DNA of 64,000 nt from Chitinophaga lutea (GTDB taxonomy: Bacteria; Bacteroidota; Bacteroidia; Chitinophagales; Chitinophagaceae): positions 1,054,001 to 1,118,000 of the forward strand of contig NZ_RPDH01000002.1 in NCBI RefSeq assembly GCF_003813775.1, given 5' to 3'. A model generated the notes under the pieces. That model made no database searches. It was not told the origin of the DNA and saw only the letters and a list, made by a program, of their open reading frames with translations. The position numbers were made by a program, and so were the translations under genes. This document shows, in pieces, positions 16,810-36,089 of the stretch (positions are counted from its first letter, which is position 1; every line of letters starts with the position of its first letter).

Positions 16810-16832
16810 TCATCCAGTAAAAACAGCGCACC

Positions 16833-17549: not shown

Positions 17550-17581
17550 TTTGTTTACTTAAACGTTTAAGCATATTTTTA
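17550..17581 (+). promoter_or_regulatory. Promoter of the LacI-family gene
   Basis: TTTG (17550-17553), 20-base spacer, TATTTTTA (17574-17581), close to the Bacteroidota consensus. The LacI operator palindrome lies wholly in the spacer, so bound repressor would block the polymerase: autoregulation. Confidence 0.6.
17558..17571. promoter_or_regulatory. LacI-family operator 1
   Basis: CTTAAACGTTTAAG is a perfect 14-base palindrome with the central CG typical of LacI-family operators. Near-identical copies occur at 18699, 33268 and 36074. Confidence 0.8.
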
Positions 17582-17586
17582 TCCTT

Positions 17587-18600
17587 ATGAAGAAAAAAAC
17601 CTCGCTGAAAGATATTGCCCTCGAGGCAGGCGTGTCTACCGCGCTCGTATCTTACGTTCTCACCAACAAGGAAGAGAAAGCGAGGGTGGGCCAGGAAATG
17701 GCGAAAAAGATCCGGAAAATAGCCCAGAAGCTCAACTATCAGCCCAATCACATCGCCCGCAGTCTCAAGAGCGGCCGGTCGGATACCATCGGGCTGATCG
17801 TTGCGGACATTTCCAACCCCTTCTTCGGGAACATCGCCCGCACCATCGAAGATGAAGCCAAGCGGAATAATTATACGGTGATCTTCGGCAGCTCCGATGA
17901 GAACCTCGACAAATCCGGCGATCTCATCAACGTACTGCTGAACCGCCAGGTGGACGGGCTCATCCTCATCCCTACCGAGGGCTCGGAACAGCAGATCAAA
18001 CAGCTCCGGAAACAGCCCGTGCCGTTTGTATTGATCGACCGGTATTTTCCGCAGATCCCCGTGAGCCAGATCGGCATCAACAATTTCCAGGCGTCGTATA
18101 ACGCCATTACCCACCTGGTTAAAACAGGGCATCAACGCATCGGCATGATCGCGTATAAAACGGCGCTGTTCCACATCAACGAACGCAAGCGCGGGTACAC
18201 CGAGGCCCTGGCGGACAACAAGCAGGCCAGCATGATGAAACTGGCCCGGTACTCCCACATCCGCGAAGAAACCCGGCAGGCGATCGACGAGCTGCTGCAG
18301 GGCCGCAAGCCGGCGGACGCGGTGTTCTTCGCCACCAACAGTCTTGCCATCGAAGGATTAAAATACATCAACGAACTGGGCATAAAAGTACCCGAAGAAC
18401 TTGCCGTAGTGAGTTTTGACGAAAGTGAGGCCTTCGACCTCTATTATTCCCCGATCACCTTCATCCGCCAGCCGATACTGGAAATGGGAAACGCCGCCGT
18501 GCGCGTGTTGCTGGAACATATCAAAAACGGCGAGAAGAAACCGGAGAACATCTGTATCGATACGGAACTGGTGATCAGGCAATCCAGCAGCCGCCGCTGA
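17587..18600 (+). CDS. LacI-family repressor of the polysaccharide locus
   Basis: A 337-residue regulator. The N-terminal HTH (TSLKDIALEAGVSTALVSYV, about 5-25) and hinge helix (NYQPNHIARSLKSGRS, about 52-67) precede a periplasmic-binding-protein-like effector domain starting TIGLIVADISNPFFGNIA. The effector pocket shows the usual DR(Y) and SFDESEAFDLYYSPITFIRQP segments near the end. It is cytosolic and dimeric by family. Its own promoter carries a palindromic operator, repeated upstream of the GH172 operon, susC and GH116, so I infer that it represses the whole locus and is released by a sugar or sugar acid from the pathway. The effector cannot be read from sequence. Confidence 0.96.
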   Translation: MKKKTSLKDIALEAGVSTALVSYVLTNKEEKARVGQEMAKKIRKIAQKLNYQPNHIARSLKSGRSDTIGLIVADISNPFFGNIARTIEDEAKRNNYTVIFGSSDENLDKSGDLINVLLNRQVDGLILIPTEGSEQQIKQLRKQPVPFVLIDRYFPQIPVSQIGINNFQASYNAITHLVKTGHQRIGMIAYKTALFHINERKRGYTEALADNKQASMMKLARYSHIREETRQAIDELLQGRKPADAVFFATNSLAIEGLKYINELGIKVPEELAVVSFDESEAFDLYYSPITFIRQPILEMGNAAVRVLLEHIKNGEKKPENICIDTELVIRQSSSRR

Positions 18601-18698
18601 CACGCACAGACCACGTAAGGAACATACAACAACTTTAGCATCAGCATAGAACGGAACTGAACGACCACGTGCACATGAAAACAGACATCGTCAACACT

Positions 18699-18714
18699 GC
18701 TTAAACGATAAAGC
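18699..18714. promoter_or_regulatory. LacI-family operator 2
   Basis: GCTTAAACGATAAAGC matches the perfect site at 36074 in 14 of 16 positions. It lies 26 bases before the GH172 start codon. Confidence 0.7.
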
Positions 18715-18740
18715 AACATTATACCATAAAGTCACAACGT

Positions 18741-19877
18741 ATGAAAAAACTGCTCCTGATCGCGCTGGCGGCCGGCATCTACGGTTCCGCACAGGCCCAG
18801 AAAACCTTCAACGGGCTCGATACCCACATCGGCAACCTGTACCGCCTCTCCGACGCCAAAACCCGGTCTATCAGCCCGGAAAACTTCACCGGCGAGCCCG
18901 GCAAAGGCGGCATGGCCACCCTCGAACAGGGCAATGCCCGCAATGCCGCGCGCGACCTCGGTCAGGGCTGGAAAGTCAATCCCTACATCCATATCGAACC
19001 GGGCAAGACCTTCACCCTCGCGGAAATCAACGGCTCCGGGGCCATCCAGCACATCTGGATGACGCCTACCGGCAACTGGCGTTATTCCATCCTCCGCTTC
19101 TACTGGGACGATGAAACCACGCCTTCCGTGGAAGTGCCCGTGGGCGATTTCTTCGGCATGGGCTGGGGCGAATATGCGCAGATGAATTCCCTCGCGGTGA
19201 CCGTTAACCCGGGCAGCGCATTCAACTGCTACTGGACGATGCCCTTCCGCAAGAAGTGCAAAATCACGATGGAGAATATCAACACCGAACGCATGACGCT
19301 CTACTACCAGGTGGACTACACGCTTACCGAAGTGCCGGAAGATGCGGGGTATTTCCACGCGCAGTTCCGCCGCAGCAACCCGGTAAAGGGAGCGGATTTC
19401 ACGCTGATCGACGGCATCAAGGGCAAAGGGCAGTATGTGGGCACCTACCTCGCCTGGGGCGTGAATAACAACGGCTGGTGGGGAGAAGGCGAGATCAAGT
19501 TCTTCATGGACGGCGACACCAAATTCCCGACCATCTGCGGCACCGGCACGGAAGACTATTTCTGCGGCTCCTATAATTTCGACAACAAAGGCAAATACCA
19601 GGAATTCTCGACACCCTACGCCGGCCTGCACCAGGTGATACGGCCGGACGGGCTGTACAAATCGCAGCAGCGCTTCGGTATGTACCGCTGGCATATCACC
19701 GACCCCATCCGTTTCGAAAAAGACCTGAAGGTCACCATCCAGGACCTGGGCTGGCGCAGCGGCGGCAGGTACCTGCCCCAGCAGTCGGACATCAGCAGCG
19801 TAGTATTCTGGTACCAGCGCGAGCCGCATGCGCCGTTCCCGAAACTGCCTTCAAAAGACGATATGGAAGTAAACTAA
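18741..19877 (+). CDS. Secreted GH172 (DUF2961) glycoside hydrolase
   Basis: A 378-residue protein with a signal peptide (1-20, ending GSAQAQ) and a near-full-length DUF2961 domain: SPENFTGEPGKGGMATLEQG (45-64), GSGAIQHIWMTP (98-109), RFYWDDETTPSVEVPVGDFFG (119-139), WTMPFRKKCKI, and the signature GTGTEDYFCGSYNF (267-280). DUF2961 is CAZy family GH172, whose known members act on difructose dianhydride I and, in D-arabinan degraders, as exo-alpha-D-arabinofuranosidases. It is the first gene of an operon that runs through aldehyde dehydrogenase, SDR, dehydratases and a permease, and it has its own LacI operator. I infer release of a D-arabinofuranose-type sugar in the periplasm; a fructofuranosidase role is the alternative. 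Confidence 0.9.
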   Translation: MKKLLLIALAAGIYGSAQAQKTFNGLDTHIGNLYRLSDAKTRSISPENFTGEPGKGGMATLEQGNARNAARDLGQGWKVNPYIHIEPGKTFTLAEINGSGAIQHIWMTPTGNWRYSILRFYWDDETTPSVEVPVGDFFGMGWGEYAQMNSLAVTVNPGSAFNCYWTMPFRKKCKITMENINTERMTLYYQVDYTLTEVPEDAGYFHAQFRRSNPVKGADFTLIDGIKGKGQYVGTYLAWGVNNNGWWGEGEIKFFMDGDTKFPTICGTGTEDYFCGSYNFDNKGKYQEFSTPYAGLHQVIRPDGLYKSQQRFGMYRWHITDPIRFEKDLKVTIQDLGWRSGGRYLPQQSDISSVVFWYQREPHAPFPKLPSKDDMEVN

Positions 19878-19899
19878 ACAGCCGAATAAAAATCACATC

Positions 19900-21450
19900 A
19901 TGCACGAGCCCGGATCACAACTCATAGGCAATACAGACAGCGCCGAAGGGCAACAGACCTTTCAGGCCTTCAGCCCGCAGCGGCAGGAATGGCTCACGCC
20001 TTCATTCCGCGAGGCGACGGCGGAAGAAATCAACCGCGCCGTCATGCTGGCGGCGGCGGCATTCAGCACTTACAAAAAAACGGACGGCGCGCAACGCGCG
20101 GCTTTCCTGCGCGCCATCGCGGACGGCATCGTTGCGCTCGGCGACGAGCTCATCAACACTGCCTCCGCTGAAAGCGGGCTGCCCCTGATGCGCCTGCAGG
20201 GTGAGCGCGACCGTACCACCAACCAGCTCCGGCTTTTCGCGGACCTCATCACGGAAGGCTCGTGGGTAAACGCGCGGATAGACAAAGGCGCCCCGGACGT
20301 CCGGCAGATACAGATACCGCTGGGCGTGGTGGCCGTTTTCGGCGCGAGCAACTTCCCGCTGGCCTTTTCCGTGGCGGGCGGCGATACGGCCGCGGCACTG
20401 GCCGCGGGTTGCACCGTGGTATGTAAAGCACACCCCGCACATCCGCATACCTCGCACCTTGTGGCTGAAGCCATACGCAAGGCCGCCGGCCAGACCGGCA
20501 TGCCCGAAGGTGTATTCTCCCTGTTGCATGGCGCCACCATCGCAACAGGCCAGCAGCTGGCCGTTCATCCATTATTGTCCGCCATCGCCTTTACGGGCTC
20601 CTTCAAAGGCGGCAAGGCGCTATACGACACGGCTACACGCAGGGCCGTGCCCATCCCCGTGTTCGCGGAAATGGGCAGCGTGAACCCGGTTTTTTTCCTG
20701 CCGGGCATTCTGAAAGAAAAAGGGGAAACCCTGGCCACGCAGTTCCTGCAATCGCTCACCATGGGCGTGGGGCAGTTCTGCACCAACCCGGGGCTGTTCA
20801 TCACACACGCGGAAAACGGCGCGTTCATGGACACGCTGCAAAAGAACATCGCCGCATTGCCCGCGGGCTGCATGCTGACGCCGGGCATCCTGGATGCGTA
20901 CAACAAAGGGCTCGGGCAACTGCGGCAGGCCGGCGCACAGGTGCTGGGCAAAGCGGAAGGCAACGCACACGAAGCCGCCCCTGCCCTTCTGCAGATCAGC
21001 GTACAGCAGGCCATCGCCAACCCGGCGCTGTGCCATGAAGTGTTCGGTCCCTCGTCCCTGCACATCCGTGCAAACGGTCCGCAGGAGCTGTACAGTCTTG
21101 CCGCGGCGCTGGAAGGCCAACTCACCGCCACCATTCACGGCACGGAAGAAGACCTCCGGCAGCATGCCGGGCTGGTGGACATTCTCCGGGAAAAAGCCGG
21201 CCGGCTCGTGATCAACGGTTTTCCTACAGGCGTGGCCGTTAATCATGCCATGGTGCACGGCGGTCCCTGGCCGGCCACCACACCGGCGGCGGGCACCTCC
21301 GTGGGCACGGCGGCCATTTACCGCTTCTGCAGGCCGGTGTGTTACCAGGACTTCCCTGCTTACCTGCTGCCGCCGGAGCTCCAGGACGGCAACCCGCTGG
21401 GCATCTGGCGGCTGCTGAACGGGCAGTTCTCCAAAGAGGCGCTGCAGTAA
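19900..21450 (+). CDS. Alpha-ketoglutarate semialdehyde dehydrogenase
   Basis: A 516-residue NADP-type aldehyde dehydrogenase of the 2,5-dioxovalerate dehydrogenase family. Catalytic residues are visible: Asn151 in FGASNFPLA, Glu257 in FAEMGSVNP and the nucleophile Cys294 in GQFCTNPG; SFKGG (234-238) is the cofactor-binding turn. The AFGASNFPLAFS and FCTNPGLF signatures are those of the KGSADH subgroup. It oxidises alpha-ketoglutarate semialdehyde to alpha-ketoglutarate, the last step of non-phosphorylating oxidative pathways for pentoses and hexaric acids. Paired with the FAH-type dehydratase at 25161 it completes a route from 2-keto-3-deoxy-pentonate to the TCA cycle. It starts 22 bases after the GH172 gene. 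Cytosolic. Confidence 0.95.
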   Translation: MHEPGSQLIGNTDSAEGQQTFQAFSPQRQEWLTPSFREATAEEINRAVMLAAAAFSTYKKTDGAQRAAFLRAIADGIVALGDELINTASAESGLPLMRLQGERDRTTNQLRLFADLITEGSWVNARIDKGAPDVRQIQIPLGVVAVFGASNFPLAFSVAGGDTAAALAAGCTVVCKAHPAHPHTSHLVAEAIRKAAGQTGMPEGVFSLLHGATIATGQQLAVHPLLSAIAFTGSFKGGKALYDTATRRAVPIPVFAEMGSVNPVFFLPGILKEKGETLATQFLQSLTMGVGQFCTNPGLFITHAENGAFMDTLQKNIAALPAGCMLTPGILDAYNKGLGQLRQAGAQVLGKAEGNAHEAAPALLQISVQQAIANPALCHEVFGPSSLHIRANGPQELYSLAAALEGQLTATIHGTEEDLRQHAGLVDILREKAGRLVINGFPTGVAVNHAMVHGGPWPATTPAAGTSVGTAAIYRFCRPVCYQDFPAYLLPPELQDGNPLGIWRLLNGQFSKEALQ

Positions 21451-21490
21451 CACATTTGTTCATCTCTATTTCCTAAAACATACTTTATTT

Positions 21491-22273
21491 ATGGACCTGG
21501 GTTTAAAAGACAAGATCATCATCGTGACAGGAGGCGCCAAAGGCATCGGCGCGGCGATTTCAGCCGTGCTCGCAGAAGAAGGCGCCATTCCCGTGATCAT
21601 CGGCAGGAATGAAGAAGACAACCTCCAGCACCTGGCCCATATCGAACGGTCCGGCGGCCAAGGCTGGCAGGTAACGGCCGAGCTCACCGAGCCCGACGAA
21701 TGCAGGGAAGCGGTGAAAGCCATCGCGGCGAAGTTCGGCAGGATAGACGGGCTGGTGAACAACGCGGGCATCAACGATGGTGTGGGGCTGGAACACGGCG
21801 GGTATGAAAAGTTCATGCGGTCGCTGCACCGCAACCTCGTGCACTATTACCTCATCGCGCACCATGCGCTGCCTTACCTGAAAAAGAACAAGGGCGCCAT
21901 CGTCAACATCAGTTCCAAAACCGCGGAAACCGGCCAGGGCAACACTTCCGCCTATGCCGCCGCGAATGGCGGGCGCAATGCCCTCACCCGCGAATGGGCC
22001 GTGGAGCTGCTGCCCTACTCCATCCGCGTGAACGCCATCGTGGTGGCCGAATCATGGACGCCGCTTTACGAAAACTGGATCAATACCTTCAACGATAAAG
22101 AAAGCAAACTGGCCGGCATACTCGCCGGCATCCCGCTCGAGAAACGGATGACGACGCCTGAAGAAATCGCCCAGACGGCGGCTTTTCTGCTCTCGTCCAA
22201 ATCCAGCCACACCACGGGCCAGCTTATTCATGTGGACGGCGGGTATGTGCACCTCGACCGGGCCCTGAAATAA
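21491..22273 (+). CDS. SDR sugar dehydrogenase (L-fucose/D-arabinose type), catalytic Lys replaced
   Basis: A 260-residue short-chain dehydrogenase. The cofactor motif TGGAKGIG (13-20) and NNAG (90-93) are intact, and the C-terminal GQLIHVDGGYVHLDR resembles L-fucose dehydrogenase-type SDRs. In the active site Ser141/142 and Tyr155 are present, but the residue four after the Tyr is Asn159 (YAAAN) instead of the usual Lys. That could reduce or alter activity, or be a subgroup feature. L-fucose and D-arabinose share the configuration at C2-C4, so enzymes of this subgroup often take both; oxidation at C1 would give the aldonolactone. It sits in the operon between KGSADH and the UxaA-type dehydratase. 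The exact substrate is inferred from context. Confidence 0.88.
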   Translation: MDLGLKDKIIIVTGGAKGIGAAISAVLAEEGAIPVIIGRNEEDNLQHLAHIERSGGQGWQVTAELTEPDECREAVKAIAAKFGRIDGLVNNAGINDGVGLEHGGYEKFMRSLHRNLVHYYLIAHHALPYLKKNKGAIVNISSKTAETGQGNTSAYAAANGGRNALTREWAVELLPYSIRVNAIVVAESWTPLYENWINTFNDKESKLAGILAGIPLEKRMTTPEEIAQTAAFLLSSKSSHTTGQLIHVDGGYVHLDRALK

Positions 22274-22292
22274 ACCTTCCAACTCCATTCAT

Positions 22293-23894
22293 ATGCGCCA
22301 ACAGATCATTCAGATACATCCTAAAGACAACGTGTGGGCCGCCCTCCAGGACGTACCGGCCGGTACCGCCATCAACGGCGTGACGGCCGTGCGCGACGTG
22401 GCGGCGAAACATAAACTGACGAAAGAATTCATTCCCAAAAACGGGCCCGTGATCATGTACGGTGTGCTGGTGGGGCTTGCCAACGAAGACCTGCCCGCCG
22501 GTGAACTGGTGACCACCAGAAACATCCGCCATGCTTCCGGCAGTTTCTCCGTGAAAGAAGAAAGGCACACGGAATGGGAGCGCCCCGACGTTTCCCGCTG
22601 GGCGCAGCGTACGTTCATGGGTTACCACCGCTCCGACGGGCGCGTGGGCACCGGTAACTACTGGGTGATCATCCCCATGGTGTTCTGCGAAAACCGCAAC
22701 GTACAAACGCTGCACAAAGTGCTGGTGAACGAGCTGGGCTACACCCAAGCCAACCCTTACGAAACCATGCTGCGGCAGCTGCTTCACAGCACCGCGCCCG
22801 AGCAGCCTTTACCGGCGCAGAGCCGCAGGTTCGCCAATATCGACGGCATCAAACTGCTGAGCCATACCCTGGGCTGCGGCGGCACGAAAGACGACGCACG
22901 CACGCTCTGCGGGCTGCTGGCCGGGTACATCACCCATCCCAACGTAGCGGGCGCCACCGTGCTGAGCCTGGGCTGCCAGAACGCGCAGCTGGAAATGCTG
23001 CAGGAAGAAATCGAAAAAAGAGTGCCCGGCTTCGACAGGCCGGTGATCTGCCTGGAGCAGCAAAAGATCGGTTCCGAAAAAGACCTGATGGAACAGGCGC
23101 TGCAACGCACGTTCGAAGGCCTTGCAAAAGCCAACGAACAGCAACGCGCGCCCGCACCGCTGAGCAAGCTGATCATCGGCATGGAATGCGGCGGCTCCGA
23201 CGGCTTCTCCGGCATCTCCGCCAACCCCGCCGTAGGGCGCGTAGCGGACATTGTGGTAGCGCTCGGCGGTTCCGTCATTCTCTCCGAATTCCCGGAGCTG
23301 TGCGGCGTGGAACAGGAACTGAGCGACCGTTGTGTAGACACCACCCTTGCCGCCCGTTATACCCAGCTGATGCGGGAATACGCCGCCCGCGCGGAAGCGG
23401 TAGGCTCCGGCTTCGACTCCAACCCTTCCGCCGGCAACATCCGCGACGGGCTCATCACCGACGCCATCAAATCCGCGGGCGCCGCTAAAAAAGGCGGTTC
23501 CTCGCCGGTGACCGATGTGATCGACTATCCCGGACGCGTTTCGAAACCCGGTCTGGCCCTGCTGTGCACACCCGGCAGCGACGTGGAATCCACCACCGCC
23601 GAAGTAGGCGCCGGCGCCAACATCGTACTGTTCACCACCGGCCTCGGTACGCCCACCGGCAACCCGGTGACGCCCGTGCTCAAATTGTCGACCAACACCA
23701 GGCTGGCCACTAAAATGCAGGACATCATCGACCTCGATACCGGCCCCATCATCAGCGGCGAAGCGTCTATCGACGAAGTGGCCGCCCGTATCATGGATCT
23801 GGTGATCGACACGGCGGGCGGACAATACACCGCCAAAGCGCAGGTGCTGGAGCAGGACGATTTTATTCCATGGAAAAGAGGCGTATCGCTTTAA
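22293..23894 (+). CDS. UxaA-family sugar-acid dehydratase (altronate dehydratase-like)
   Basis: A 533-residue member of the altronate/galactarate dehydratase family. A SAF-type N-terminal domain (about 8-95, containing AALQDVPAGTAINGVT and DLPAGELVTTRNIRH) is joined to the UxaA catalytic part with MGYHRSDGRVGTGNYWVIIP, LLSHTLGCGG, GATVLSLGCQN, IGMECGGSDGFSGISANPA and NPVTPVLKLSTNT. The Cys-rich glycine loops are the iron-dependent active-site motifs of the family. It removes water from an aldonate to give a 2-keto-3-deoxy acid. In this operon D-arabinonate (or L-fuconate) is the most likely substrate, replacing the enolase-type dehydratase used in other organisms. It starts 19 bases after the SDR gene. 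Confidence 0.92.
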   Translation: MRQQIIQIHPKDNVWAALQDVPAGTAINGVTAVRDVAAKHKLTKEFIPKNGPVIMYGVLVGLANEDLPAGELVTTRNIRHASGSFSVKEERHTEWERPDVSRWAQRTFMGYHRSDGRVGTGNYWVIIPMVFCENRNVQTLHKVLVNELGYTQANPYETMLRQLLHSTAPEQPLPAQSRRFANIDGIKLLSHTLGCGGTKDDARTLCGLLAGYITHPNVAGATVLSLGCQNAQLEMLQEEIEKRVPGFDRPVICLEQQKIGSEKDLMEQALQRTFEGLAKANEQQRAPAPLSKLIIGMECGGSDGFSGISANPAVGRVADIVVALGGSVILSEFPELCGVEQELSDRCVDTTLAARYTQLMREYAARAEAVGSGFDSNPSAGNIRDGLITDAIKSAGAAKKGGSSPVTDVIDYPGRVSKPGLALLCTPGSDVESTTAEVGAGANIVLFTTGLGTPTGNPVTPVLKLSTNTRLATKMQDIIDLDTGPIISGEASIDEVAARIMDLVIDTAGGQYTAKAQVLEQDDFIPWKRGVSL

Positions 23895-23930
23895 CACAAC
23901 AACATTTTATACCACATTAATTCCTTAGTT

Positions 23931-25154
23931 ATGAAATTGAACATCCTCGCAGGCAGCCTGCTGGCCGTCACCATCGGCTGTAACGAAGCGGCGGAGAAAA
24001 AAGACGCCCCGCCCGGCAATTTCGGCGAAGACGTGGCCTTCCTGCAAAAACACCTGCAGAATGTAGTGGTACTGCAAAGCAGCGGCGACAGCAGCCGCGT
24101 TGTGGTGACCGGCGACTACCAGGCCCGTGTGATGACCAGCACCGCCGGCGGCGATGCCGGCAAAAGTTTCGGCTGGCTCAATTACGGCCTGATCGCTTCC
24201 GGCAAGCTCAACCCCCATATCAATGCATTCGGCGGGGAAGAGCGGTTCTGGCTCGGTCCCGAAGGCGGCCAGTACTCGCTGTTCTTTCCGCCCGGCAAAC
24301 CTTTCGATTTCGACAACTGGCAAACGCCGGGGTTGATAGACACGGCGCATTACACCGTCCGTTCACAATCCGCCGGTGAAATCACTTACGAATACGCCGG
24401 CAACGTGCAGAACTATTCCGGCACCAATTTCCGGCTCGGCATCACCCGCACCATCCGGCTGCTGAACAGCCAGGCGATTGCCGCCCGCATCAGCGCCGCA
24501 TTGCCCGAAGGCATTAAAAGCGTGGCTTACGAAACGGAAAACGTGCTCACCAATACCGGCGACAGCGCCTGGCAGGAAGAACGCGGCCTCATGAGCATCT
24601 GGCTGCTCGGCATGTTCAAACCATCGCCGCAGACCGCCGTGATCGCGCCGTTCAAAAACCTCCCCGACGCACGGAAACACATCACCGACGATTATTTCGG
24701 CAAGATACCGCCACAGAACCTGCAGGTCAAAGACAGCCTGCTGCTCTTCCGTGCGGACGGCAAGGCGCGCGGCAAACTCGGCCTCTCCCCGCAGGTGGCC
24801 AAACCCGCGGCCGGCAGCATCGACCTCGAGAACAACACCCTCACCGTGCTCTTCTACGACGTGGTGCCCGATGGCCGTTATGTAAACTCGAAATGGGAGC
24901 TGCAGAAAGAACCGTTTAAAGGCGATGCCGTGAATTGTTATAACGACGGCCCGTTGGCAGACGGCTCACAGATGGGGCCTTTTTACGAAGTGGAATCATC
25001 GTCAGACGCCAGGGCCCTGAAACCCGGCGAATCCCTGACCTACCGGCAGGTGACCATGCATTTCGAGGGCAGCCGCGAGGCCCTGCAAACGCTCGCGCAG
25101 CAGCTGTGGCAACTGCCGCTGGGTGATGTGCAACAATTCCTCCAAACAAAATAA
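23931..25154 (+). CDS. DUF6786-like lipoprotein
   Basis: A 407-residue lipoprotein (lipidated Cys17 in AVTIGC) with an all-beta body. The segment FGGEERFWLGPEGGQYSLFF is what I associate with the DUF6786 family, and the overall strand pattern resembles aldose-epimerase/mutarotase-like folds. There is no recognised catalytic assignment. It sits between the sugar-acid dehydratase and the FAH-type dehydratase, so it probably acts on or binds the sugar in the periplasm, for instance as a mutarotase, or possibly helps open the lactone that the SDR would make. The gene that follows starts only 6 bases after its stop. Confidence 0.8.
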   Translation: MKLNILAGSLLAVTIGCNEAAEKKDAPPGNFGEDVAFLQKHLQNVVVLQSSGDSSRVVVTGDYQARVMTSTAGGDAGKSFGWLNYGLIASGKLNPHINAFGGEERFWLGPEGGQYSLFFPPGKPFDFDNWQTPGLIDTAHYTVRSQSAGEITYEYAGNVQNYSGTNFRLGITRTIRLLNSQAIAARISAALPEGIKSVAYETENVLTNTGDSAWQEERGLMSIWLLGMFKPSPQTAVIAPFKNLPDARKHITDDYFGKIPPQNLQVKDSLLLFRADGKARGKLGLSPQVAKPAAGSIDLENNTLTVLFYDVVPDGRYVNSKWELQKEPFKGDAVNCYNDGPLADGSQMGPFYEVESSSDARALKPGESLTYRQVTMHFEGSREALQTLAQQLWQLPLGDVQQFLQTK

Positions 25155-25160
25155 TCCCGT

Positions 25161-26018: not shown

Positions 26019-26027
26019 AACGCCGTT

Positions 26028-28351: not shown

Positions 28352-28366
28352 AGTTTCCAGTTTATA

Positions 28367-30142
28367 CTACCATCCCGGATTCTGTACCAGGTTCCGGTTT
28401 TTGTTGATTTCTTCCTGTTGAAGGGGCCAGAGATAGTGTTTCGGGGAAACGAACACCCGTTTCTCCACCACCACCCTTTTGTAAAAATTGTTGTCGCCGA
28501 GGTTGGTGCCCGCGCCGATGTTCATGCCGTGAATTTCCTTGCTGTCGATACCTGCGGCGATTTTCCAGCGGCGGGTATCGAAATAGCGGTGTGTTTCAAA
28601 AGCCAGTTCAATCCTTCTTTCGTGCCAGATACGCATCCGCATCTGGTCCTGCGAAAGCCCCGCCGGCAAAGACGGCAGCCCTGACCTGTCGCGGATGAGG
28701 TTCACATATTTATACACGTCGGCCACCGGGCCGTCCATCTCGTTGAGCGCTTCCGCATAGTTCAGGTAACTTTCGCCCAGCCGGTAGTAGATGAAGGTAT
28801 TCAATGAAAACCTGTTCTGGAAGATGTCCGACGTGGGATTCACCATTTTTTTCATCAGGTAACCGGTGATGCAATAATCGGAACCTGCGCGTTTACGCCC
28901 GTCCAGCCCCTCGAACCAGAACTGGATGCCGCGCCCTTTCCAGATGGCGCCGTTGAAGTTGATGCTGGCGTAGAACCGCGGTTCGCGGCCCACGTACATG
29001 TTCCGTACACCGGCAGGATAATAATCCTTCGGGTGTTTGGCCGCTACATACCCCGTTTCCACGTAACCGGAAGCGGGATTCACCACAGGCGAGCCATCCG
29101 CGGCATACCCCGTGATGGGCCGCTCGCCGTTCGCCATTTCATAATCGTCTACCAGCTCCTGGGTAGGACAAAATATCGAGAACCCGCCGAAACCGATGGG
29201 ATTGCTGCAGCGCTCAAAATGCGAATGCTCTCCGGCATTGCGGGCAAACAATACTTCCACGTTGTTCCGTTCGATGAACACTTCCTGGTAATTGCGCACG
29301 GGGTCGTTGCTGGCCGAGCGGTACAGGCGGTAACCATTCGCCTCCACCCCGTCTATACATTCTTTTGCCGCTACCGCCGCTCTTCTCCACCTTTCCTTGT
29401 CAAATGCCGGGAACAGCTGCACCCCTTCCCCGTCTTTCACGTTCACATAATCCGGGTTGCCGTTCCACAGCGGGCTGGCCATGTAGAGCAATGCCTGCGC
29501 CTTGAGCGCCAGGGCCGCGGGCCTGGTCACCCGGCCGTACTGGTCTGCCCCCACCCGCCAGTCGAGCAGCGGCATGGCCTTATCGCATTCGGCCACGATA
29601 AAATCGATCACCTTGTTCACCGGCTGCCGGCGGATTTTTGAATAGTCTTCGCTCAGGGTAAACGCATGGTCGCTGATGGGGATGGCGCCGTAAATGCGGG
29701 CCAGCATAAAGTGATAAAACGCGCGGAGAAAGGTGGCTTCCCCAATCCATCTTTTGCGTTCTGCTTCGTCCATAGGCACGGCGCCCACATTGTCGAGGAA
29801 AATATTGGTTTTCCGGATGCCTTCGTACATAAAGCCCCATACGTCCGGAAAAAAGTCGTTGGCGCTCCAGGCGCCGGAATTCAGCAGATGCGAGTACGCG
29901 CCGAGGAAAGTGATTTCCATTTCATCGCTGGCGCCGGTATAGGGATTGCGCTGATCCCAGTCAGCCGCACCCAGCATAACGGGCACATTGTGGTAGGCGG
30001 AGGAGAGGAACGATTCGGCGTATTTCCTTTCAGAGAATACCTTCTTGATGTCCAGGTCTTCATCCGGAGCTTTCTTCAGGTAGTCTTTCGTGCAGGATGC
30101 CACGCAGAACAGTATGGTGATCAGAAAAAGTGACTTTTTCAT
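28367..30142 (-). CDS. SusD/RagB-family outer-membrane lipoprotein
   Basis: A 591-residue lipoprotein (lipidated Cys17 in FCVASC). It has the usual all-helical SusD N-terminal part with TPR-like helices (KYAESFLSSAYHNV, EAERKRWIGEATFLRAFYHF), the KAQALLYMASPLWNG segment, and the C-terminal signatures YRLGESYLNYAEALNEMDG and MRIWHERRIELAFETHRYFDTRRWK. SusD proteins bind the glycan at the cell surface and act as a lid on SusC. It starts 22 bases after susC ends, so the two are co-transcribed under the operator at 33268. The ligand is not readable from sequence. Confidence 0.96.
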   Translation of the reverse strand: MKKSLFLITILFCVASCTKDYLKKAPDEDLDIKKVFSERKYAESFLSSAYHNVPVMLGAADWDQRNPYTGASDEMEITFLGAYSHLLNSGAWSANDFFPDVWGFMYEGIRKTNIFLDNVGAVPMDEAERKRWIGEATFLRAFYHFMLARIYGAIPISDHAFTLSEDYSKIRRQPVNKVIDFIVAECDKAMPLLDWRVGADQYGRVTRPAALALKAQALLYMASPLWNGNPDYVNVKDGEGVQLFPAFDKERWRRAAVAAKECIDGVEANGYRLYRSASNDPVRNYQEVFIERNNVEVLFARNAGEHSHFERCSNPIGFGGFSIFCPTQELVDDYEMANGERPITGYAADGSPVVNPASGYVETGYVAAKHPKDYYPAGVRNMYVGREPRFYASINFNGAIWKGRGIQFWFEGLDGRKRAGSDYCITGYLMKKMVNPTSDIFQNRFSLNTFIYYRLGESYLNYAEALNEMDGPVADVYKYVNLIRDRSGLPSLPAGLSQDQMRMRIWHERRIELAFETHRYFDTRRWKIAAGIDSKEIHGMNIGAGTNLGDNNFYKRVVVEKRVFVSPKHYLWPLQQEEINKNRNLVQNPGW

Positions 30143-30163
30143 CTTGTTGGTTTGAAGATTGAA

Positions 30164-33100
30164 TTAAAATGAAAGCTGCGCCCCGAAGTTGATGCTGCGC
30201 TGTAAAGGATATCCGCCGGTGCCGTAATCGGACTCGGGGTCTATCACCTTGATCTTGTCCCAGGTAACGAGATTATACCCGTTGATGAAAATGCGGGTAT
30301 TGTCGAGGCCGATTTTCTTCAGCGCCGCCACCTTGAACGTATAGGCCACCTCCGCGCTCTTCAGGCGCAGGTAAGCAGCGTTCTGCAAAAACATGGTGGA
30401 CGTTCTGTTATTGTTCGGGTTCTGGTAGGGCGACACGCGGGGATATTTGGCATCCTGGCGCTGCGGCGTCCAGCGGTTGTCGTAGTATTCGCGCAGGATG
30501 TTGTAAGTGCCCAGCCCCATCTGGAAGGCGTACATCGAAGGGCCGTCCACGAACAGGCTGGCCCTGGCCGCTCCCGTAAAGAACACGCTCAGCTCCACCC
30601 CTTTGTATGCAACGCTGGCGCCGGCGCCGTACACCATTTGAGGGGTGCGCGGGTAGCCGATGGGCACGCGGTCGTAATCATCCACCACACCGTCGTTGTT
30701 GTAATCCTGGTACTTGATGTCGCCGGGTTTTACCTGGTCCATAAAATTCTGTTTCGGGCTGCGCTCGATGTCCGCCTGATCTTTGAAGAACCCCAGCGCG
30801 ATGAGGCCCATGGGCTGATCGATGGGCAGGCCTACGAACGACTGGTAAGGGTATTTCGGGATGGGATCGTCGTTTTGCGTGCAGATGCTTTTGGCGTAGG
30901 TGATGGTGCCGCGGAAGCTATAATAGAAGCCTTTGCGGGTAGTATGTTTTACTTCCAGCATGGCGTCGATGCCGGTGTTTTTGGCCTTGCCGAGGTTGGC
31001 GTAGGGCAACGTCCAGGGGTAATAGCCGGTTACACGGGGAATCACGCCACGCTGTATCAGTATCCCATCGCGCTGTTCCTTGAATGCATCCACCTGCAGG
31101 TTCACGATGCCGCTCAGCAATTCAAGATCGAAGCCGATATTGGACTTGGTGGCCACTTCCCAGGTCACGTCATCGTTCCCGATCTGCGCTTCTTCAAAGC
31201 CCTGGTAAAAACGCTGGTTGTCGCCAAAGAAGTACGACTGCCCCTGCCGGTTGATAGTGGTGAGGAACAGGTAACGCCGCCCCCCGATCTGGTCGTTGCC
31301 CACCTGGCCAAATGAGCCCCTGATCTTGAGATGCGATACCGCATCAAAGTTCCAGAACTTTTCGCGGGTGAGCACCCAGCCTGCCGACACCGACGGGAAG
31401 AACCCGAACTGTTTGCCTTCCGGGAAATTCTCCGAACCGTTGTAGCCCGCGTTCACTTCCGCGAGGTAGCGGTTGTCGTAGTTGTAGGTGATACGCCCTG
31501 CCAGCCCCTGACGACGGTACGGCAGGTTGCTCAGGGTAGAGCCGGCCGTGAGGTCGATGTACTCGCGGCGGTTGCCTAATATCATGCCGGTAACGGTATG
31601 TTTGTTGAAGGAGCGGTTGTAGTTGACGGCCACTTCCGTGTAATAGGCACGGTTGGCGCCGTTGTTCACCACGTAGCGCATGGGCTGTTCTTCCCGGATG
31701 GGCGGGGATGAATAACGGTCGTTGCCGTTGGCGTCTTTGCCCAGGTACTGTTTGATGGCGTATGGTTTGATACGATCCGTGGAGGCGGAATACCAGTGAT
31801 CGTACGAAAAAAGCCCGCGTACGGAAAGGCCTTTGGTGACGAGGGAAGAGAGGTCCCAGCGCCCGCCGAATGTGCCCTGCAGCGTATTCCTGTCTTGCCG
31901 CGTATACCCCGCCTGCGTTACGAGCCCCCAGGGGTTATTTTGCAGGTAGGAAGTGGAAGCGCCGGCGATGGAGCCGTCAGGGTTTATTTTGGGATAGTTG
32001 ATGGGAGACGTGATGCGGAGCGCGTTAAAAATATCCGGCGCGCGGGTACCGGGATAGTTGCCCTGCTGTATCACCCCGCCGATGCCCAGTTCGAGGCTGA
32101 TGGTGGGTGACACGTTGATATCTACGTTCGAGCGGAAGTTATACCGCTTCATCTGTGCGTTGGTTTTGTAGGCGTTCTTCGGATCCTGCTTATAGATGCC
32201 GTTCAGTATCGTATACCCTACGTTCGTATAATACTTGATGATCTCATTACCGCCGGTCACGCTGAGGTTGTTGATGGACTGGAAGGTGTTCCGTTTCAGC
32301 ACGGCGTCTGTCCAGTCCACATCCGGGTACAGGTAAGGATCCGACCGGTCCCTGAACTTGCGCAGCTCGTCATCCGTGTACCGGGCCGGCAGATTGTCGT
32401 TCACCAGCGCCTCATTGATGAGGCCCGCATATTCAGGCCCGTTGATGTACTGGGGCAAGCGCATGGCCTGCAGCGTGGCGTTTTCCGTACGGAACACCAC
32501 GCGCGGCCGGCCGGTGACGCCTCTTTTGGTGGCGATCAATATCACGCCGTTCGCCCCTCTCACACCATATACCGCGGTGGCCGACGCGTCTTTCAGGATG
32601 GAGAAACTTTCTATTTCCTGGGTGTTGATGTTGTTGATGTCGCGCTCTACCCCATCCACCAGTATCAGCGGGCTCCTGTTCGCCCAGGTGCCGAAGCCCC
32701 GGATGAAAATGGCAGCCCCGTCGTATCCCGGCTCTCCGGAGCTTTGCCGTGTGATGATGCCCGGCATGCTGCCCGCAAGGGCGTTAGATAGTGAAGGAGT
32801 GGCGATCCGCTGCAGGTTGTTCACCGGTACACTGGAGATGGCCCCCGTTACCGTCGCTTTTTTCTGCTTGCCGAAACCCACCACCACCACATCGCCAAGG
32901 TTACTCGACTGCTGTTTGAGCGATACATTCAATACGCTGTTATTACCCACGGTGATGGCCTGCGTTTCAAAACCGATGTAGGTAAATACCAGCATGGCGT
33001 CGTTCCCCGAAACCTTGATGGCATAGGTTCCGTCCGGGTAAGTGGTGGTGCCCACGGGCGAGCCCTGTACAACGATGGTCACTTCCGAGAGCGGCTTGCC

Positions 33101-33232
33101 GTCGGCAGCGGAAGTCACTTTACCGGTGACGACCTTCTGCGCTTGCGCCGCGGTGATACAGGTGAGGAGGAACACAAAAAAAACGGAGCGTCTTTTTTGT
33201 TGAGCAGGCATTGAAAGCCGACAACTTTTCAT
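30164..33232 (-). CDS. SusC/RagA-family TonB-linked outer-membrane transporter
   Basis: A 1022-residue transporter taking the start at MKSCRLSMPAQQ; the longer frame would leave only five bases to the operator. After the signal peptide (ending AAQAQ) come a carboxypeptidase-regulatory-like domain (VVTGKVTSAADGKPLSEVTI), a plug domain with SNALAGSMPGIITRQSSGEPGYDGA, then FIRGFG, and the SusC-type LVDGVERDI and AVYGVRGANGVILIATKRG signatures, then a 22-strand barrel ending in NFGAQLSF. It imports oligosaccharides in a TonB-dependent way with SusD. The LacI operator at 33268-33283 lies 36 bases before this start. Confidence 0.96.
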   Translation of the reverse strand: MKSCRLSMPAQQKRRSVFFVFLLTCITAAQAQKVVTGKVTSAADGKPLSEVTIVVQGSPVGTTTYPDGTYAIKVSGNDAMLVFTYIGFETQAITVGNNSVLNVSLKQQSSNLGDVVVVGFGKQKKATVTGAISSVPVNNLQRIATPSLSNALAGSMPGIITRQSSGEPGYDGAAIFIRGFGTWANRSPLILVDGVERDINNINTQEIESFSILKDASATAVYGVRGANGVILIATKRGVTGRPRVVFRTENATLQAMRLPQYINGPEYAGLINEALVNDNLPARYTDDELRKFRDRSDPYLYPDVDWTDAVLKRNTFQSINNLSVTGGNEIIKYYTNVGYTILNGIYKQDPKNAYKTNAQMKRYNFRSNVDINVSPTISLELGIGGVIQQGNYPGTRAPDIFNALRITSPINYPKINPDGSIAGASTSYLQNNPWGLVTQAGYTRQDRNTLQGTFGGRWDLSSLVTKGLSVRGLFSYDHWYSASTDRIKPYAIKQYLGKDANGNDRYSSPPIREEQPMRYVVNNGANRAYYTEVAVNYNRSFNKHTVTGMILGNRREYIDLTAGSTLSNLPYRRQGLAGRITYNYDNRYLAEVNAGYNGSENFPEGKQFGFFPSVSAGWVLTREKFWNFDAVSHLKIRGSFGQVGNDQIGGRRYLFLTTINRQGQSYFFGDNQRFYQGFEEAQIGNDDVTWEVATKSNIGFDLELLSGIVNLQVDAFKEQRDGILIQRGVIPRVTGYYPWTLPYANLGKAKNTGIDAMLEVKHTTRKGFYYSFRGTITYAKSICTQNDDPIPKYPYQSFVGLPIDQPMGLIALGFFKDQADIERSPKQNFMDQVKPGDIKYQDYNNDGVVDDYDRVPIGYPRTPQMVYGAGASVAYKGVELSVFFTGAARASLFVDGPSMYAFQMGLGTYNILREYYDNRWTPQRQDAKYPRVSPYQNPNNNRTSTMFLQNAAYLRLKSAEVAYTFKVAALKKIGLDNTRIFINGYNLVTWDKIKVIDPESDYGTGGYPLQRSINFGAQLSF

Positions 33233-33267
33233 AAACGTGATGATTTTTAGGTGGATAGGCAAATGAA

Positions 33268-33283
33268 GCTTAATCGTTTAAGC
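33268..33283. promoter_or_regulatory. LacI-family operator 3 (susC)
   Basis: GCTTAATCGTTTAAGC is one base from the perfect 36074 palindrome. It precedes susC. On the minus strand it overlaps a TTTG that could serve as the -33 box. Confidence 0.8.
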
Positions 33284-33336
33284 AAACGAAACGTAAAAAA
33301 CCTGTATTTTGCTGTTGTCCGTATGATCCTGGCTGA

Positions 33337-35913
33337 TTATCCTAGTTGCATTGTTTTTCCTGATACGATGGCCCGCTTTACGGGGATGGTGCCGAATGCT
33401 ACCTGCAGCGAGGGTTTACCGTTCCGCAGACTTACGGTACCGAAACCTTTCGCCGTGGAAATGAAGCTGGAAAAGTCCCCCACTTTCGAGTCGATGAACA
33501 GCGTACCGTCTACCGCATCGTAGCGCACGCCGGTGAGGCCCTGCAGCATGCCGTAACTGCTCATGGCCCTGGCGTACCAATGGCCGCATTCGTATTCGTT
33601 GAAGGGATTGCGCACGGAGCCATCGTAGCGGCCGCGGCAGGCGCGTACGATGTCGAGGCCCTTTTCCACTTCGCCCATGAACATCAGGTGGGAAGCTACC
33701 TGGTATTCGATGCCCGTCCACACTTCGTTGCTGTACACGAACGGCAGCGAGAGCTTCCCTCCTTTCGGCCAGGAGCACAGCAGCAGTCCCCCTTCATTAC
33801 CCAGCGCAAAGGTGGGGCGCTGCGGGTTGGCGTGCGCGCTGAGGTCTTTTTTAAGATTGTATTGGTGTACGGCGAGCAGGTGGCTTTTTGTTTTGGCGGC
33901 ATCCACCGGCTCTTCCATGCCGCAGACGCGGGCTATCCAGGAGCCGAGTATGCCGTCGGACAAACAGCCCTCGCCATACTGGTACTTGGGGCCTTCCGCT
34001 TTCAGCAGGCGCTGCGCCTCTTCCGAATAGTGCGTATGGAACGATTGTGCTTTGGCCGGGTCGGGTGCGTTGAGCCCCGTCCATTGTATTTTCTGGATGA
34101 AGTATTCGCCGTTGAAGAGCGTTGTTTCAAGGTATTGTTTGCCTTTTTCGTAGAGCGACTGGTAATCGGCCACATCGCTGTTCAGATGTTTGCCCATGAG
34201 CGTGAAGGCTTTCAGTGCGCCGAGGTAAAAGCTGGTGCACATGCCGGTGGGGCCCCAGAACTCGATGTCGTAGGTGTTGTGGTGCGGTTCTTCCACCACT
34301 CCTTTCTTGCGCGGGTCCCAAGTACGGATGCAATAATCCATGCTCGTTTTGACGGCGGGGAAGATGTTTTTCAGCCAGTCGTTGTCGCCGCTGATACGCC
34401 ACTCGCGGTATACCTTCATGATGCCGCCGAGCTGCCCGTCCGCCGCCGCGTGGAAATTGTGCACCAGCGGGGAAATGGGAATATTGGCGCGGAATCCCTG
34501 GTGCCCGTCCGCATTCTGGTTTTCTTTGAACTCCGTGTTGCGCAGGCTTCTTTCCAGGTTGGGAAACAGGTGCGGCACGGCCTGCGCGTAGTTCCATACG
34601 TGCGTACAGGAACCGTGGCAACTGCCCCAGTTGTCGCCGCTGCCCTCCCAGCACCAGAAGCGGCCGTCGTACTGGCGCATCACTGTCGCCGATTTGAGAA
34701 TGGTGAGATTCGCGGCCACGGCTTCAATCACTTCCGGAGGCAGGGTGCTTTTGTAGAAGGTGCTTGTGAAGAGCGAAGTTTTTTGATGGAGGGTGTCGTA
34801 ATTGGTTTTCCAGTAATCCGCTACTTCGTTGATGTTTTTAAAACGGTGGCTGTACCAGGGGCGGTGAAACTTCGGCTGGTCCGGATGATCGCCGCTCGCA
34901 TCGTCGCCGATGCGCAATTTGGAATCCGGCACGTACCACGCCATCAGCAGGCGGATCGTCTTTTTTTCTCCCGGTCCCAGGCGGAAGGGCACGAAGAGCG
35001 AAGCACCCGGCGCGTCTTTTCCCACGGGCGGGTTGTTTTTGACCTCCGCTGCCTGCACGGTGTTCCATACCATCGACAACGGGTCGAACCAGCCGCCCCG
35101 GAACCAGCAATGGTCCGTTACCGTGGCTTTGTCTGTTGTGAAGATGGCGAAGTGGCCCTGCTTTTCCGGTGCATTGGCCGTGGCATCCTGCGACAGGATA
35201 AAACCCTGCTGCAAGGCGCTGATATGATTTCCCGCTTCTCCCTGCCGCATGAAGTTCCGGGTATTGTAAGAAAACACGTATTCCTGGGAGGATTTACCGG
35301 TGTTGGTGAACTGGTATTCGATTGCGCCCACGGGCAGGCTGGAATTATCTTCATCGGTGGGCACGAAGGGGCTCCATCCTTTTATCTTTACGGCTAAAGG
35401 TATTGCGGTGTCTTTCAGCGAGATGTCGGCAAAGGGAAAACGTGCCTTGAACTCCGCTTCCTCAAACCGCGGAAGGCCCCAGGTAGCGCCGCCCGTACCA
35501 CCCAGGCCCGCATCGCGCTGGCCGAACTTTTTCCAGTCGGGAATCTGCTGTTCCAGCACTCTTGCGCCGCCGGGCATTCCTTTGATGCTGATGGCCGCAA
35601 ACATCGCCGGTTCGAAAAACATTTCAGGGTTATGCCGGATAGACATATGTGAGATGGCGCCCGAGCCTTCGATGCAGAACATGCCCGCCCCGATGCCGCC
35701 AACCGGGAAAGCGATGCGGTTGTTGTATTTTCCTTTGTAGGGCTCGTTGAAACCACGGGCACCGGGTGCTTTGCCCGTTAACGCGCCGGTGTTCTGTTCA
35801 TGGGCAGACGCCGTGTCTTTCGCGGTAACGATATTGGGCAGCGCTGCCGCGCCTATCCAGCCCAACGTAAAATTCTTCAGAAAATGACGGCGGTTTTTAC
35901 TTGATTTCTTCAT
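33337..35913 (-). CDS. Tat-exported GH116-family glycoside hydrolase
   Basis: An 858-residue enzyme. The N-terminus is a twin-arginine signal (NRRHFLKNFTLGWIG, Arg8-Arg9), so it is exported folded. The GBA2-type N-terminal domain follows (FPVGGIGAGMF at 69-79, WGLPRF, IEYQFTNTG), then the (alpha/alpha)6 barrel with FWCWEGSGDNWG, HVWNYAQAVPHLFPNLERSLR, the likely nucleophile Glu551 in HNTYDIEFWG and the likely acid/base Asp653 in GEGCLSDGILGSW. GH116 members are beta-glucosidases, beta-xylosidases and glucosylceramidases; I recall, with less certainty, an exo-D-arabinofuranosidase in a D-arabinan degrader. The LacI operator at 36074 precedes it. Substrate remains to be tested. Confidence 0.92.
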   Translation of the reverse strand: MKKSSKNRRHFLKNFTLGWIGAAALPNIVTAKDTASAHEQNTGALTGKAPGARGFNEPYKGKYNNRIAFPVGGIGAGMFCIEGSGAISHMSIRHNPEMFFEPAMFAAISIKGMPGGARVLEQQIPDWKKFGQRDAGLGGTGGATWGLPRFEEAEFKARFPFADISLKDTAIPLAVKIKGWSPFVPTDEDNSSLPVGAIEYQFTNTGKSSQEYVFSYNTRNFMRQGEAGNHISALQQGFILSQDATANAPEKQGHFAIFTTDKATVTDHCWFRGGWFDPLSMVWNTVQAAEVKNNPPVGKDAPGASLFVPFRLGPGEKKTIRLLMAWYVPDSKLRIGDDASGDHPDQPKFHRPWYSHRFKNINEVADYWKTNYDTLHQKTSLFTSTFYKSTLPPEVIEAVAANLTILKSATVMRQYDGRFWCWEGSGDNWGSCHGSCTHVWNYAQAVPHLFPNLERSLRNTEFKENQNADGHQGFRANIPISPLVHNFHAAADGQLGGIMKVYREWRISGDNDWLKNIFPAVKTSMDYCIRTWDPRKKGVVEEPHHNTYDIEFWGPTGMCTSFYLGALKAFTLMGKHLNSDVADYQSLYEKGKQYLETTLFNGEYFIQKIQWTGLNAPDPAKAQSFHTHYSEEAQRLLKAEGPKYQYGEGCLSDGILGSWIARVCGMEEPVDAAKTKSHLLAVHQYNLKKDLSAHANPQRPTFALGNEGGLLLCSWPKGGKLSLPFVYSNEVWTGIEYQVASHLMFMGEVEKGLDIVRACRGRYDGSVRNPFNEYECGHWYARAMSSYGMLQGLTGVRYDAVDGTLFIDSKVGDFSSFISTAKGFGTVSLRNGKPSLQVAFGTIPVKRAIVSGKTMQLG

Positions 35914-36073: not shown

Positions 36074-36089
36074 GCTTAAACGTTTAAGC
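36074..36089. promoter_or_regulatory. LacI-family operator 4 (GH116), perfect palindrome
   Basis: GCTTAAACGTTTAAGC is fully symmetric and the best of the four sites. It lies 161 bases before the GH116 start and is preceded on the minus strand by ATTTG, as at the susC site. Confidence 0.85.

Follow-up and report, generated by a model that had tools for sequence, protein, structure and literature searches.

RESULTS

Gene content and arrangement of the locus

The window analyzed here is a stretch of 64,000 nt on the contig NZ_RPDH01000002.1 of Chitinophaga lutea, the genome of which comprises 6.6 Mb in 4 contigs. Positions 17587 to 35913 of this window harbor a gene cluster that is probably a polysaccharide utilization locus (PUL) for glycans containing D-arabinofuranose (D-Araf). 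An initial annotation, made from the DNA sequence only, had proposed a D-arabinan utilization locus that feeds an oxidative D-arabinose pathway. Genes were assigned with the Pfam and NCBIfam profiles, and the nearest solved structures were retrieved with phmmer. All genes named in the initial annotation were present as intact open reading frames (ORFs) with matches to the respective families, but its gene list had overlooked the DUF6786 gene, the gene at 27323 to 28351 and the LacI operators.

The locus is composed of two converging operons (Table 1). On the plus strand, lacI is followed by the genes for a GH172 glycosidase, an aldehyde dehydrogenase (ALDH), a short-chain dehydrogenase/reductase (SDR), a UxaA-type dehydratase, a DUF6786 protein, a KdaD-type protein with FAH fold and FucP, and neighboring genes between the GH172 gene and fucP are 7 to 41 bases apart. 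The minus-strand operon encodes a GH116 glycosidase, SusC, SusD and a protein without Pfam match, designated U342, and the gene for U342 terminates inside the 3' end of fucP. Signal sequences, judged by eye only, were of the secretion type on GH172 and U342, twin-arginine-like on GH116 and of the lipoprotein type on DUF6786 and SusD.

Table 1. Features of the predicted D-arabinofuranose utilization locus (positions in the window)
Feature	Position	Strand	Basis or remark
LacI-type operator	17557..17572	.	1 mismatch to GCTTWAWCGWTWAAGC; 30 bases before lacI
LacI-family regulator	17587..18600	+	Pfam PF00356, PF13377
LacI-type operator before GH172 operon	18699..18714	.	0 mismatches to GCTTWAWCGWTWAAGC
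GH172, predicted exported exo-alpha-D-arabinofuranosidase	18741..19877	+	PF11175, 335 bits; 8ic8 ExoMA1, 445 bits
ALDH, predicted alpha-ketoglutarate semialdehyde dehydrogenase	19900..21450	+	PF00171; 3v4c, 424 bits; 1eyy, 417 bits
SDR, L-fucose/D-arabinose 1-dehydrogenase type	21491..22273	+	NF052481, 419 bits, cut-off 300
UxaA/GarD family, predicted D-arabinonate dehydratase	22293..23894	+	PF20629, 305 bits; PF04295; 6u7l, 223 bits
DUF6786 lipoprotein, predicted galactose-mutarotase fold	23931..25154	+	DUF6786, 526 bits
FAH fold, predicted 2-keto-3-deoxy-D-arabinonate dehydratase (KdaD)	25161..26018	+	2q18, 195 bits; next 54
FucP-type sugar:H+ symporter	26028..27326	+	TIGR00885, 354 bits, cut-off 280
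U342, predicted exported protein with no Pfam match; the SusCD operon ends with this gene	27323..28351	-	
SusD	28367..30142	-	PF07980, 198 bits
SusC/RagA TonB-dependent porin	30164..33262	-	TIGR04056, 969 bits
LacI-type operator at susC start	33268..33283	.	0 mismatches to GCTTWAWCGWTWAAGC
GH116, predicted exported exo-beta-D-arabinofuranosidase	33337..35913	-	PF04685, 198 bits; PF12215, 145 bits; 8ic6 ExoMA2, 379 bits
LacI-type operator before GH116	36074..36089	.	perfect 16-base palindrome

Both glycosidases are closest to D-arabinofuranosidases

The best solved match of GH172 was ExoMA1 (8ic8) with 445 bits, compared to 151 bits for the difructose dianhydride enzyme alphaFFase1 and 143 and 140 bits for two further GH172 entries. 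Its residue Asn279 aligned with Asn253 of ExoMA1, a residue described as blocking alpha-D-fructofuranose and replaced by Gly299 at the equivalent position of alphaFFase1 (PMC10509167). A difructose or fructan substrate was rejected for the GH172 of the locus on the basis of these scores and of the Asn position; other GH172 proteins of the genome may differ. GH116 matched best ExoMA2 (8ic6) with 379 bits, and the sole other match at the cut-off was a non-lysosomal glucosylceramidase with 52 bits. Residues Glu423, His438, Arg475 and Asp549 aligned with Glu431, His446, Arg483 and Asp557 of ExoMA2, the numbering in the 8ic6 chain being shifted by 4. The assignment of Glu and Asp as nucleophile and acid/base and of His and Arg as marks of D-Araf recognition comes from the description of ExoMA2 as a GH116 exo-beta-D-arabinofuranosidase of a proposed subfamily 4 (PMC10509167). 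A placement in this subfamily is suggested by the comparison of scores. These results support the prediction from sequence that GH172 is an exo-alpha-D-arabinofuranosidase, as the initial annotation had considered, and GH116 an exo-beta-D-arabinofuranosidase; for GH116, which had been placed in this context with less certainty, ExoMA2 provides the precedent.

Close relatives of the GH172 protein, 71 to 89% identical, adjoin GH43 genes elsewhere, indicating that this clade works in other contexts, too. A second cluster of the same genome (G000:C2:1751095-1764297; stretches L006 and L007) contains four GH172 genes together with genes for SusC/SusD, a sodium-solute-type symporter and a LacI regulator. 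One of these GH172 copies (L007:3378-4586) scored about equally with ExoMA1 (146 bits) and with a functionally uncharacterized GH172 from Bacteroides (144 bits).

The predicted cytosolic chain ends in a KdaD-type dehydratase and an aldehyde dehydrogenase

Genes assigned by their closest relatives to a 1-dehydrogenase, a D-arabinonate dehydratase, KdaD and an alpha-ketoglutarate semialdehyde dehydrogenase (KGSADH) sit together in the plus-strand operon. The SDR cleared the cut-off of the L-fucose dehydrogenase model (Table 1), and known L-fucose 1-dehydrogenases are described to act also on D-arabinose (PMC6336799), as the initial annotation had assumed. For the next step, a D-arabinonate dehydratase of the UxaA/GarD superfamily has been reported with 100% activity on D-arabinonate and at most 12% on three related sugar acids (PMC6336799). 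The FAH protein was nearest to the archaeal 2-keto-3-deoxy-D-arabinonate dehydratase 2q18, with a large distance to the next structure, as expected from its initial designation as KdaD-like. Its residues Glu139, Glu141 and Asp160 aligned with Glu143, Glu145 and Asp164 of 2q18, which are presumably the metal-binding residues. The nearest structures of the ALDH were 3v4c, "aldehyde dehydrogenase (NADP+)," and 1eyy, "aldehyde dehydrogenase," followed by a match with 87 bits; the type-III KGSADHs presumably belong to this 3v4c/1eyy group. KdaD and ALDH would form a C5-specific end of the chain that is unsuited to L-fucose.

A gene of the UxaA type with 46% identity was found in the Escherichia coli TUM2805 plasmid record NZ_CP128951.1 (L201), beside genes for IclR, a protein of the dihydrodipicolinate synthase family and a transporter of the major facilitator superfamily (MFS). 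On its flanks, this region has genes of chromosomal appearance and a transposase of the IS4 family.

Fucose isomerase and GH183 are not detectable in the genome

A profile search for FucI (PF07881) gave no match in the genome of the window, while 3 of 14 control genomes were positive (E. coli, Deinobacterium and Thermotoga). The initial annotation had seen no endo-acting GH183 enzyme at the locus, and this extends to the whole genome, since a profile search with PF13810 (GH183/DUF4185) yielded no match there; the 14 control genomes were silent, too. A GH183 encoded elsewhere in the genome was thus discarded as an explanation. PF13810 matches occurred in 26 of 147 genomes of the family and in 36 of 79 genomes of the genus, mostly weak and partial; strong full-length matches with 328 and 312 bits were present in genome G405 of another genus. 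Because 12 of the 31 KdaD-bearing genus genomes possess some DUF4185 match, with only two of full length, absence of GH183 is not a rule of the oxidative locus type. None of these matches was located inside the fetched KdaD locus stretches, as judged from the coordinates.

A LacI-type operator sequence is shared by the operons

Comparison of the leader regions of the GH172 and GH116 genes revealed one shared palindrome. The LacI-type palindrome GCTTWAWCGWTWAAGC, with up to 1 mismatch, had four matches in the window, and 0.01 were expected from 100 shuffles. Because these sites precede lacI, the GH172 gene, susC and the GH116 gene, the locus looks like one regulon at the sequence level. Among 38 loci scanned, 85 matches were obtained, while permuted palindromes (30 draws) gave 0 to 2 matches each. 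In the 28 oxidative loci of this set, the site was located before lacI in 27 cases, the stretch of the remaining one starting inside lacI, and before the GH172 gene in 26. Among the loci of the FucI type, those of G405 and G301 likewise have the site in front of genes, and that of G463 does not. The palindrome is not universal, because at up to 1 mismatch there was no site in L218, a FucI-type congener, or in L183, L074, L082, L058 and L073. L176 to L179, the four genus loci that lack both lacI and a GH172 gene, had none, and even at up to 2 mismatches none was present in the two fetched stretches of the second GH172 cluster or around a second DUF6786 gene.

A conserved core is apparently combined with exchangeable modules

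KdaD was encoded in 31 of the 79 genus genomes. Carriers of the locus include C. cymbidii (L008) and C. polysaccharea (L010). The surrounding loci, fetched as stretches of about 19 kb so that some genes were cut off, contained genes for DUF6786 (31), ALDH (28), LacI (27), GH172 (27), SDR (26), the UxaA type (24), GH116 (21), the U342 type (16), FucP (15) and close SusC and SusD proteins (12 each). FucI was found in a single genus genome, G463, which has no KdaD. The gene order in this genome is LacI, GH172, DUF6786, FucI, MFS, ribulokinase, GH116 and SusC. In G405, the order is SusC, SusD, GH172, LacI, GH172, DUF6786, FucI, MFS, an unassigned protein, GH116 and DUF4185. Since one congener joins the same core to FucI and ribulokinase, D-arabinose is independently indicated as the shared sugar.

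Across 80 loci with close GH172 genes, 7 contained KdaD, 6 FucI and none both, while DUF6786 was present in 22, including all 6 FucI loci. LacI, GH172 and DUF6786 are read here as a common core that is combined with one of two alternative D-arabinose routes, the oxidative module or FucI, which never occurred together in a fetched locus. On the GH172 tree, the oxidative label requires at least 3 changes, 2 of them forced by well-supported branches, compared to a mean of 14.9 for shuffled labels; this speaks against a single switch of the module. The FucI label did not cluster significantly on this tree, since 63 of 500 shuffles needed no more changes. One well-supported clade contains loci of both types, and because long branches meet there, the number of module swaps is unsure.

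Two variants of the KdaD locus were observed within the genus. Three loci (L176, L177 and L179) have DUF6786 and KdaD genes beside distant SusC/SusD genes and no matches to GH172, LacI, SDR, ALDH or the UxaA type in the stretch; they may perhaps serve another D-pentose glycan. Three others (L172, L173 and L174) are complete oxidative loci but for the UxaA-type gene, so that another dehydratase or a different route would be needed.

DUF6786 and U342

The DUF6786 gene adjoined the KdaD gene in all 31 genus KdaD loci. A galactose-mutarotase fold is predicted for the protein from a structural model; in both structure predictions, this one and that of U342, a part of the genus rows was left out. 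An alignment of 22 rows, without that of L045, which is a fused long ORF, contained invariant Glu residues and a single His late in the sequence, possible counterparts of the catalytic Glu and His of aldose 1-epimerases. A second DUF6786 gene of the genome (G000:C2:1934953-1936062; L186 and L188) is accompanied by neither GCTTWAWCGWTWAAGC nor a recognized D-arabinan gene within 18 kb.

U342 had no Pfam match and hence possesses no DUF4185 domain, and a relative in L215 was also without NCBIfam match. Homologs were encoded in 16 of the 79 genus genomes, always at a distance of no more than 1.5 kb from KdaD. Only the genome of the window itself was positive among 296 genomes of the phylum, and 5 of 294 family genomes, again including that of the window, were positive with alignment, with scoring limited to six candidates per genome. 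From 21 carriers of the U342 type, 20 adjoin D-arabinan genes: the 16 genus loci, G536 (oxidative), G301 (FucI type), G405 and L058 (FucI type), the last of which was fetched for its GH172 and is not an independent carrier. The exception, G538, starts 588 bases into a contig, and no D-arabinan gene follows downstream within 19.5 kb. In G405, the homolog opens an operon that also contains genes for SusC, SusD and DUF4185 and has a GCTTWAWCGWTWAAGC operator upstream. Because a homolog adjoins GH183 as well, a role of U342 in D-arabinan use is favored, and a simple replacement of GH183 is disfavored. A low-confidence structural model displayed a beta-sandwich core; either a novel enzyme or a protein that binds glycans at the cell surface is conceivable for U342.

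Neighboring genes

The AraC and SDR genes past position 36261 are not conserved neighbors in the genus loci, which yielded only weak SDR and AraC matches with 27 to 41% identity. Upstream of the locus, positions 10806 to 13271 and 14671 to 17417 contain three ORFs without Pfam match, two on the plus strand and a long one on the minus strand.

DISCUSSION

Proposed function of the locus

Homology, active-site residues, gene context and regulation largely bear out the initial proposal. The locus is best explained as one LacI-controlled PUL for D-arabinofuranose-bearing glycans, the D-arabinose of which would be oxidized to alpha-ketoglutarate, and a probability of about 0.82 is assigned to this interpretation of the sequence data. 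Predicted D-arabinofuranosidases and a SusC/SusD pair share one operator-bearing locus, as expected of a D-arabinan PUL in Bacteroidota. Outside the cytoplasm, GH172 would cut off alpha-D-Araf and GH116 beta-D-Araf residues, and SusC/SusD would take up oligosaccharides. The released D-arabinose may be equilibrated by the DUF6786 lipoprotein and then imported by FucP. In the cytoplasm, the SDR would oxidize D-arabinose to the lactone, which leads to D-arabinonate, and the UxaA/GarD-type enzyme would convert D-arabinonate to 2-keto-3-deoxy-D-arabinonate. KdaD could then form alpha-ketoglutarate semialdehyde, which the ALDH would oxidize to alpha-ketoglutarate. LacI is predicted to bind to the four GCTTWAWCGWTWAAGC sites and to be released by D-arabinose or an intermediate of the pathway. 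The likeliest source of the polymer would be a mycobacterial or related cell wall, and D-arabinose is an unusual sugar of mycobacterial cell walls.

Several observations weigh against this interpretation. DUF6786 was missing from 58 of the 80 loci with close GH172 genes, many of them short. GH43 accounted for 9 of 68 scanned genes flanking DUF6786-less GH172 genes, with 68 of 89 flanking ORFs taken in and the others dropped by length or by hand, and with 9 of the 58 loci left out because they contained no recognizable GH172 ORF. GH172 alone cannot define the substrate because its close relatives reside in loci without DUF6786, FucI or KdaD, some beside GH43. The Asn position of GH172 is occupied by Asp in several other loci with the LacI-GH172-DUF6786 core. 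Moreover, UxaA is absent from 7, SDR from 5, and GH172 together with LacI from 4 of the 31 genus KdaD loci, so that the gene set is not indivisible. The ALDH, initially assigned as KGSADH, scored 106 to 110 bits with the NCBIfam KGSADH models and passed none of their cut-offs of 750 to 770 bits. No lactonase gene is part of the locus, and six SMP-30-type matches lie at other places of the genome; the lactone ring may open unaided. The GCTTWAWCGWTWAAGC pattern was drawn from these very sequences, so that its occurrence in the relatives tests conservation and is no independent discovery. Lack of a recognizable GH183 has to be counted on this side, too, and so does a Hymenobacter plasmid cluster that shares the upper enzymes, with identities of 68% for the SDR, 53% for the UxaA type and 51% for FucP.

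This Hymenobacter cluster also carries one more SDR and a different FAH enzyme and is read here as a gene set for the diketo route of L-fucose degradation. Because SDR and FucP of the window also clear the cut-offs of L-fucose families, both could act on L-fucose that is released by the exported enzymes. The upper enzymes are common to both clusters and the FAH enzymes differ, so that the branch after the keto-deoxy acid separates D-arabinose from L-fucose: the FAH protein of the window is only 27% identical to that of Hymenobacter over 195 residues and matches KdaD instead. According to a chemical argument made here, dehydration of 2-keto-3-deoxy-L-fuconate would leave a methyl ketone, which is no substrate for an ALDH, and no fucosidase was present among the scanned genes of the locus. 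L-Fucose as main substrate is very unlikely and was set aside on the basis of the KdaD-ALDH pair and the low FAH identity. A Weimberg route for D-xylose, with GH172 and GH116 acting on fructofuranosides and beta-glucosides or beta-xylosides, respectively, would agree with KdaD, since D-xylose and D-arabinose yield the same keto-deoxy intermediate, the substrate of this enzyme. The GH116 family, moreover, includes beta-glucosidases and a beta-xylosidase (PMC10509167). Both glycosidases of the window are, however, far nearer to the D-Araf enzymes and keep the D-Araf residues, and the dehydratase belongs to the UxaA/GarD family, whose described member prefers D-arabinonate among the sugar acids shown (PMC6336799). 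Such a D-xylose pathway has hardly any likelihood.

A scavenger that leaves the endo step to others and only removes D-Araf from the ends of oligosaccharides or of short glycans, for example those decorating pilins, is a possibility to be taken seriously, albeit with well below an even chance. It would explain a genome without GH183 and a locus in which glycosidases of the exo type are the only ones recognized, and GH172 enzymes are described to release D-Araf from pilin oligosaccharides (PMC10115798). On the other hand, the SusC/SusD pair that belongs to this regulon is more suited to larger glycans, exo enzymes of the ExoMA type alone may attack the ends of a polymer, and U342 could be an unrecognized endo-enzyme. 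The proposal that U342 founds a new secreted D-arabinan-processing family, possibly of endo-D-arabinanases, which would enable feeding on D-arabinan via alpha-ketoglutarate under one LacI regulator without GH183, is rather improbable, and an accessory role or one in glycan binding would fit, too.

Concerning the use of such loci, the GCTTWAWCGWTWAAGC motif provides a handle for finding further D-arabinan genes, including those for the endo-enzyme in genomes without GH183, and the DUF6786 and U342 families are candidates for assays. Enzymes of this kind are tools to dissect mycobacterial arabinogalactan and lipoarabinomannan. D-Arabinan-degrading enzymes were first identified in 2023, and the open-access literature searched contained no paper on D-arabinan in Chitinophaga, on DUF6786 or on a D-arabinonate PUL; this is weak evidence for novelty, with subscription journals and preprints mostly outside the search.

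Comparison with known systems

A D-arabinan PUL in Bacteroidota is known; the oxidative module, the LacI operator and the lack of GH183 appear to be new. The same four steps as predicted for the window occur in Route II of Sulfolobus, which uses KdaD, and in cluster 4 of Paraburkholderia mimosarum (PMC6336799). A dehydratase of the UxaA/GarD family is common to the window, Herbaspirillum and P. mimosarum, while that of Sulfolobus belongs to the enolase superfamily (PMC6336799). The P. mimosarum cluster employs a dehydrogenase of the aldo/keto reductase family instead of an SDR, and no glycan-degrading genes are described for it in the parts of the publication available (PMC6336799). On plasmid pRUNSL05 of Runella slithyformis (L202), KdaD and UxaA proteins with 55% and 53.5% identity are encoded on either side of an "aldehyde dehydrogenase (NADP(+))" gene; in contrast to the window, GH172, GH116 and SusCD are absent from the 23 features shown, and AraC adjoins instead of LacI.

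Dysgonomonas gadei, which was grown on D-arabinan, belongs like the window to the Bacteroidota, and its PUL42 is induced by D-arabinan and contains GH172 exo-alpha-D-arabinofuranosidases (PMC10115798) and a putative GH116 exo-beta enzyme (PMC10509167). PUL42 additionally encodes endo-enzymes of GH183 and a fucose isomerase, which ranks as the most abundant of its carbohydrate-active enzymes (PMC10115798), whereas the window has neither and would use the oxidative route instead. The closest characterized relatives of both window glycosidases come from the Microbacterium arabinogalactanolyticum cluster with ExoMA1, ExoMA2 and EndoMA1/2 (PMC10509167). There, the exo enzymes are cytoplasmic and act after ABC import (PMC10509167), while those of the window appear to be exported and are accompanied by SusCD and FucP; the D-arabinose route proposed for Microbacterium consists of an isomerase and a kinase (PMC10509167), that of the window would be oxidative. 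Both D-arabinan systems send D-arabinose through isomerization and phosphorylation (PMC10115798, PMC10509167). The joining of D-arabinofuranosidases to an oxidative pathway in the window would mean that the core that cleaves the glycan can be separated, as a module, from the route by which the monosaccharide is used.

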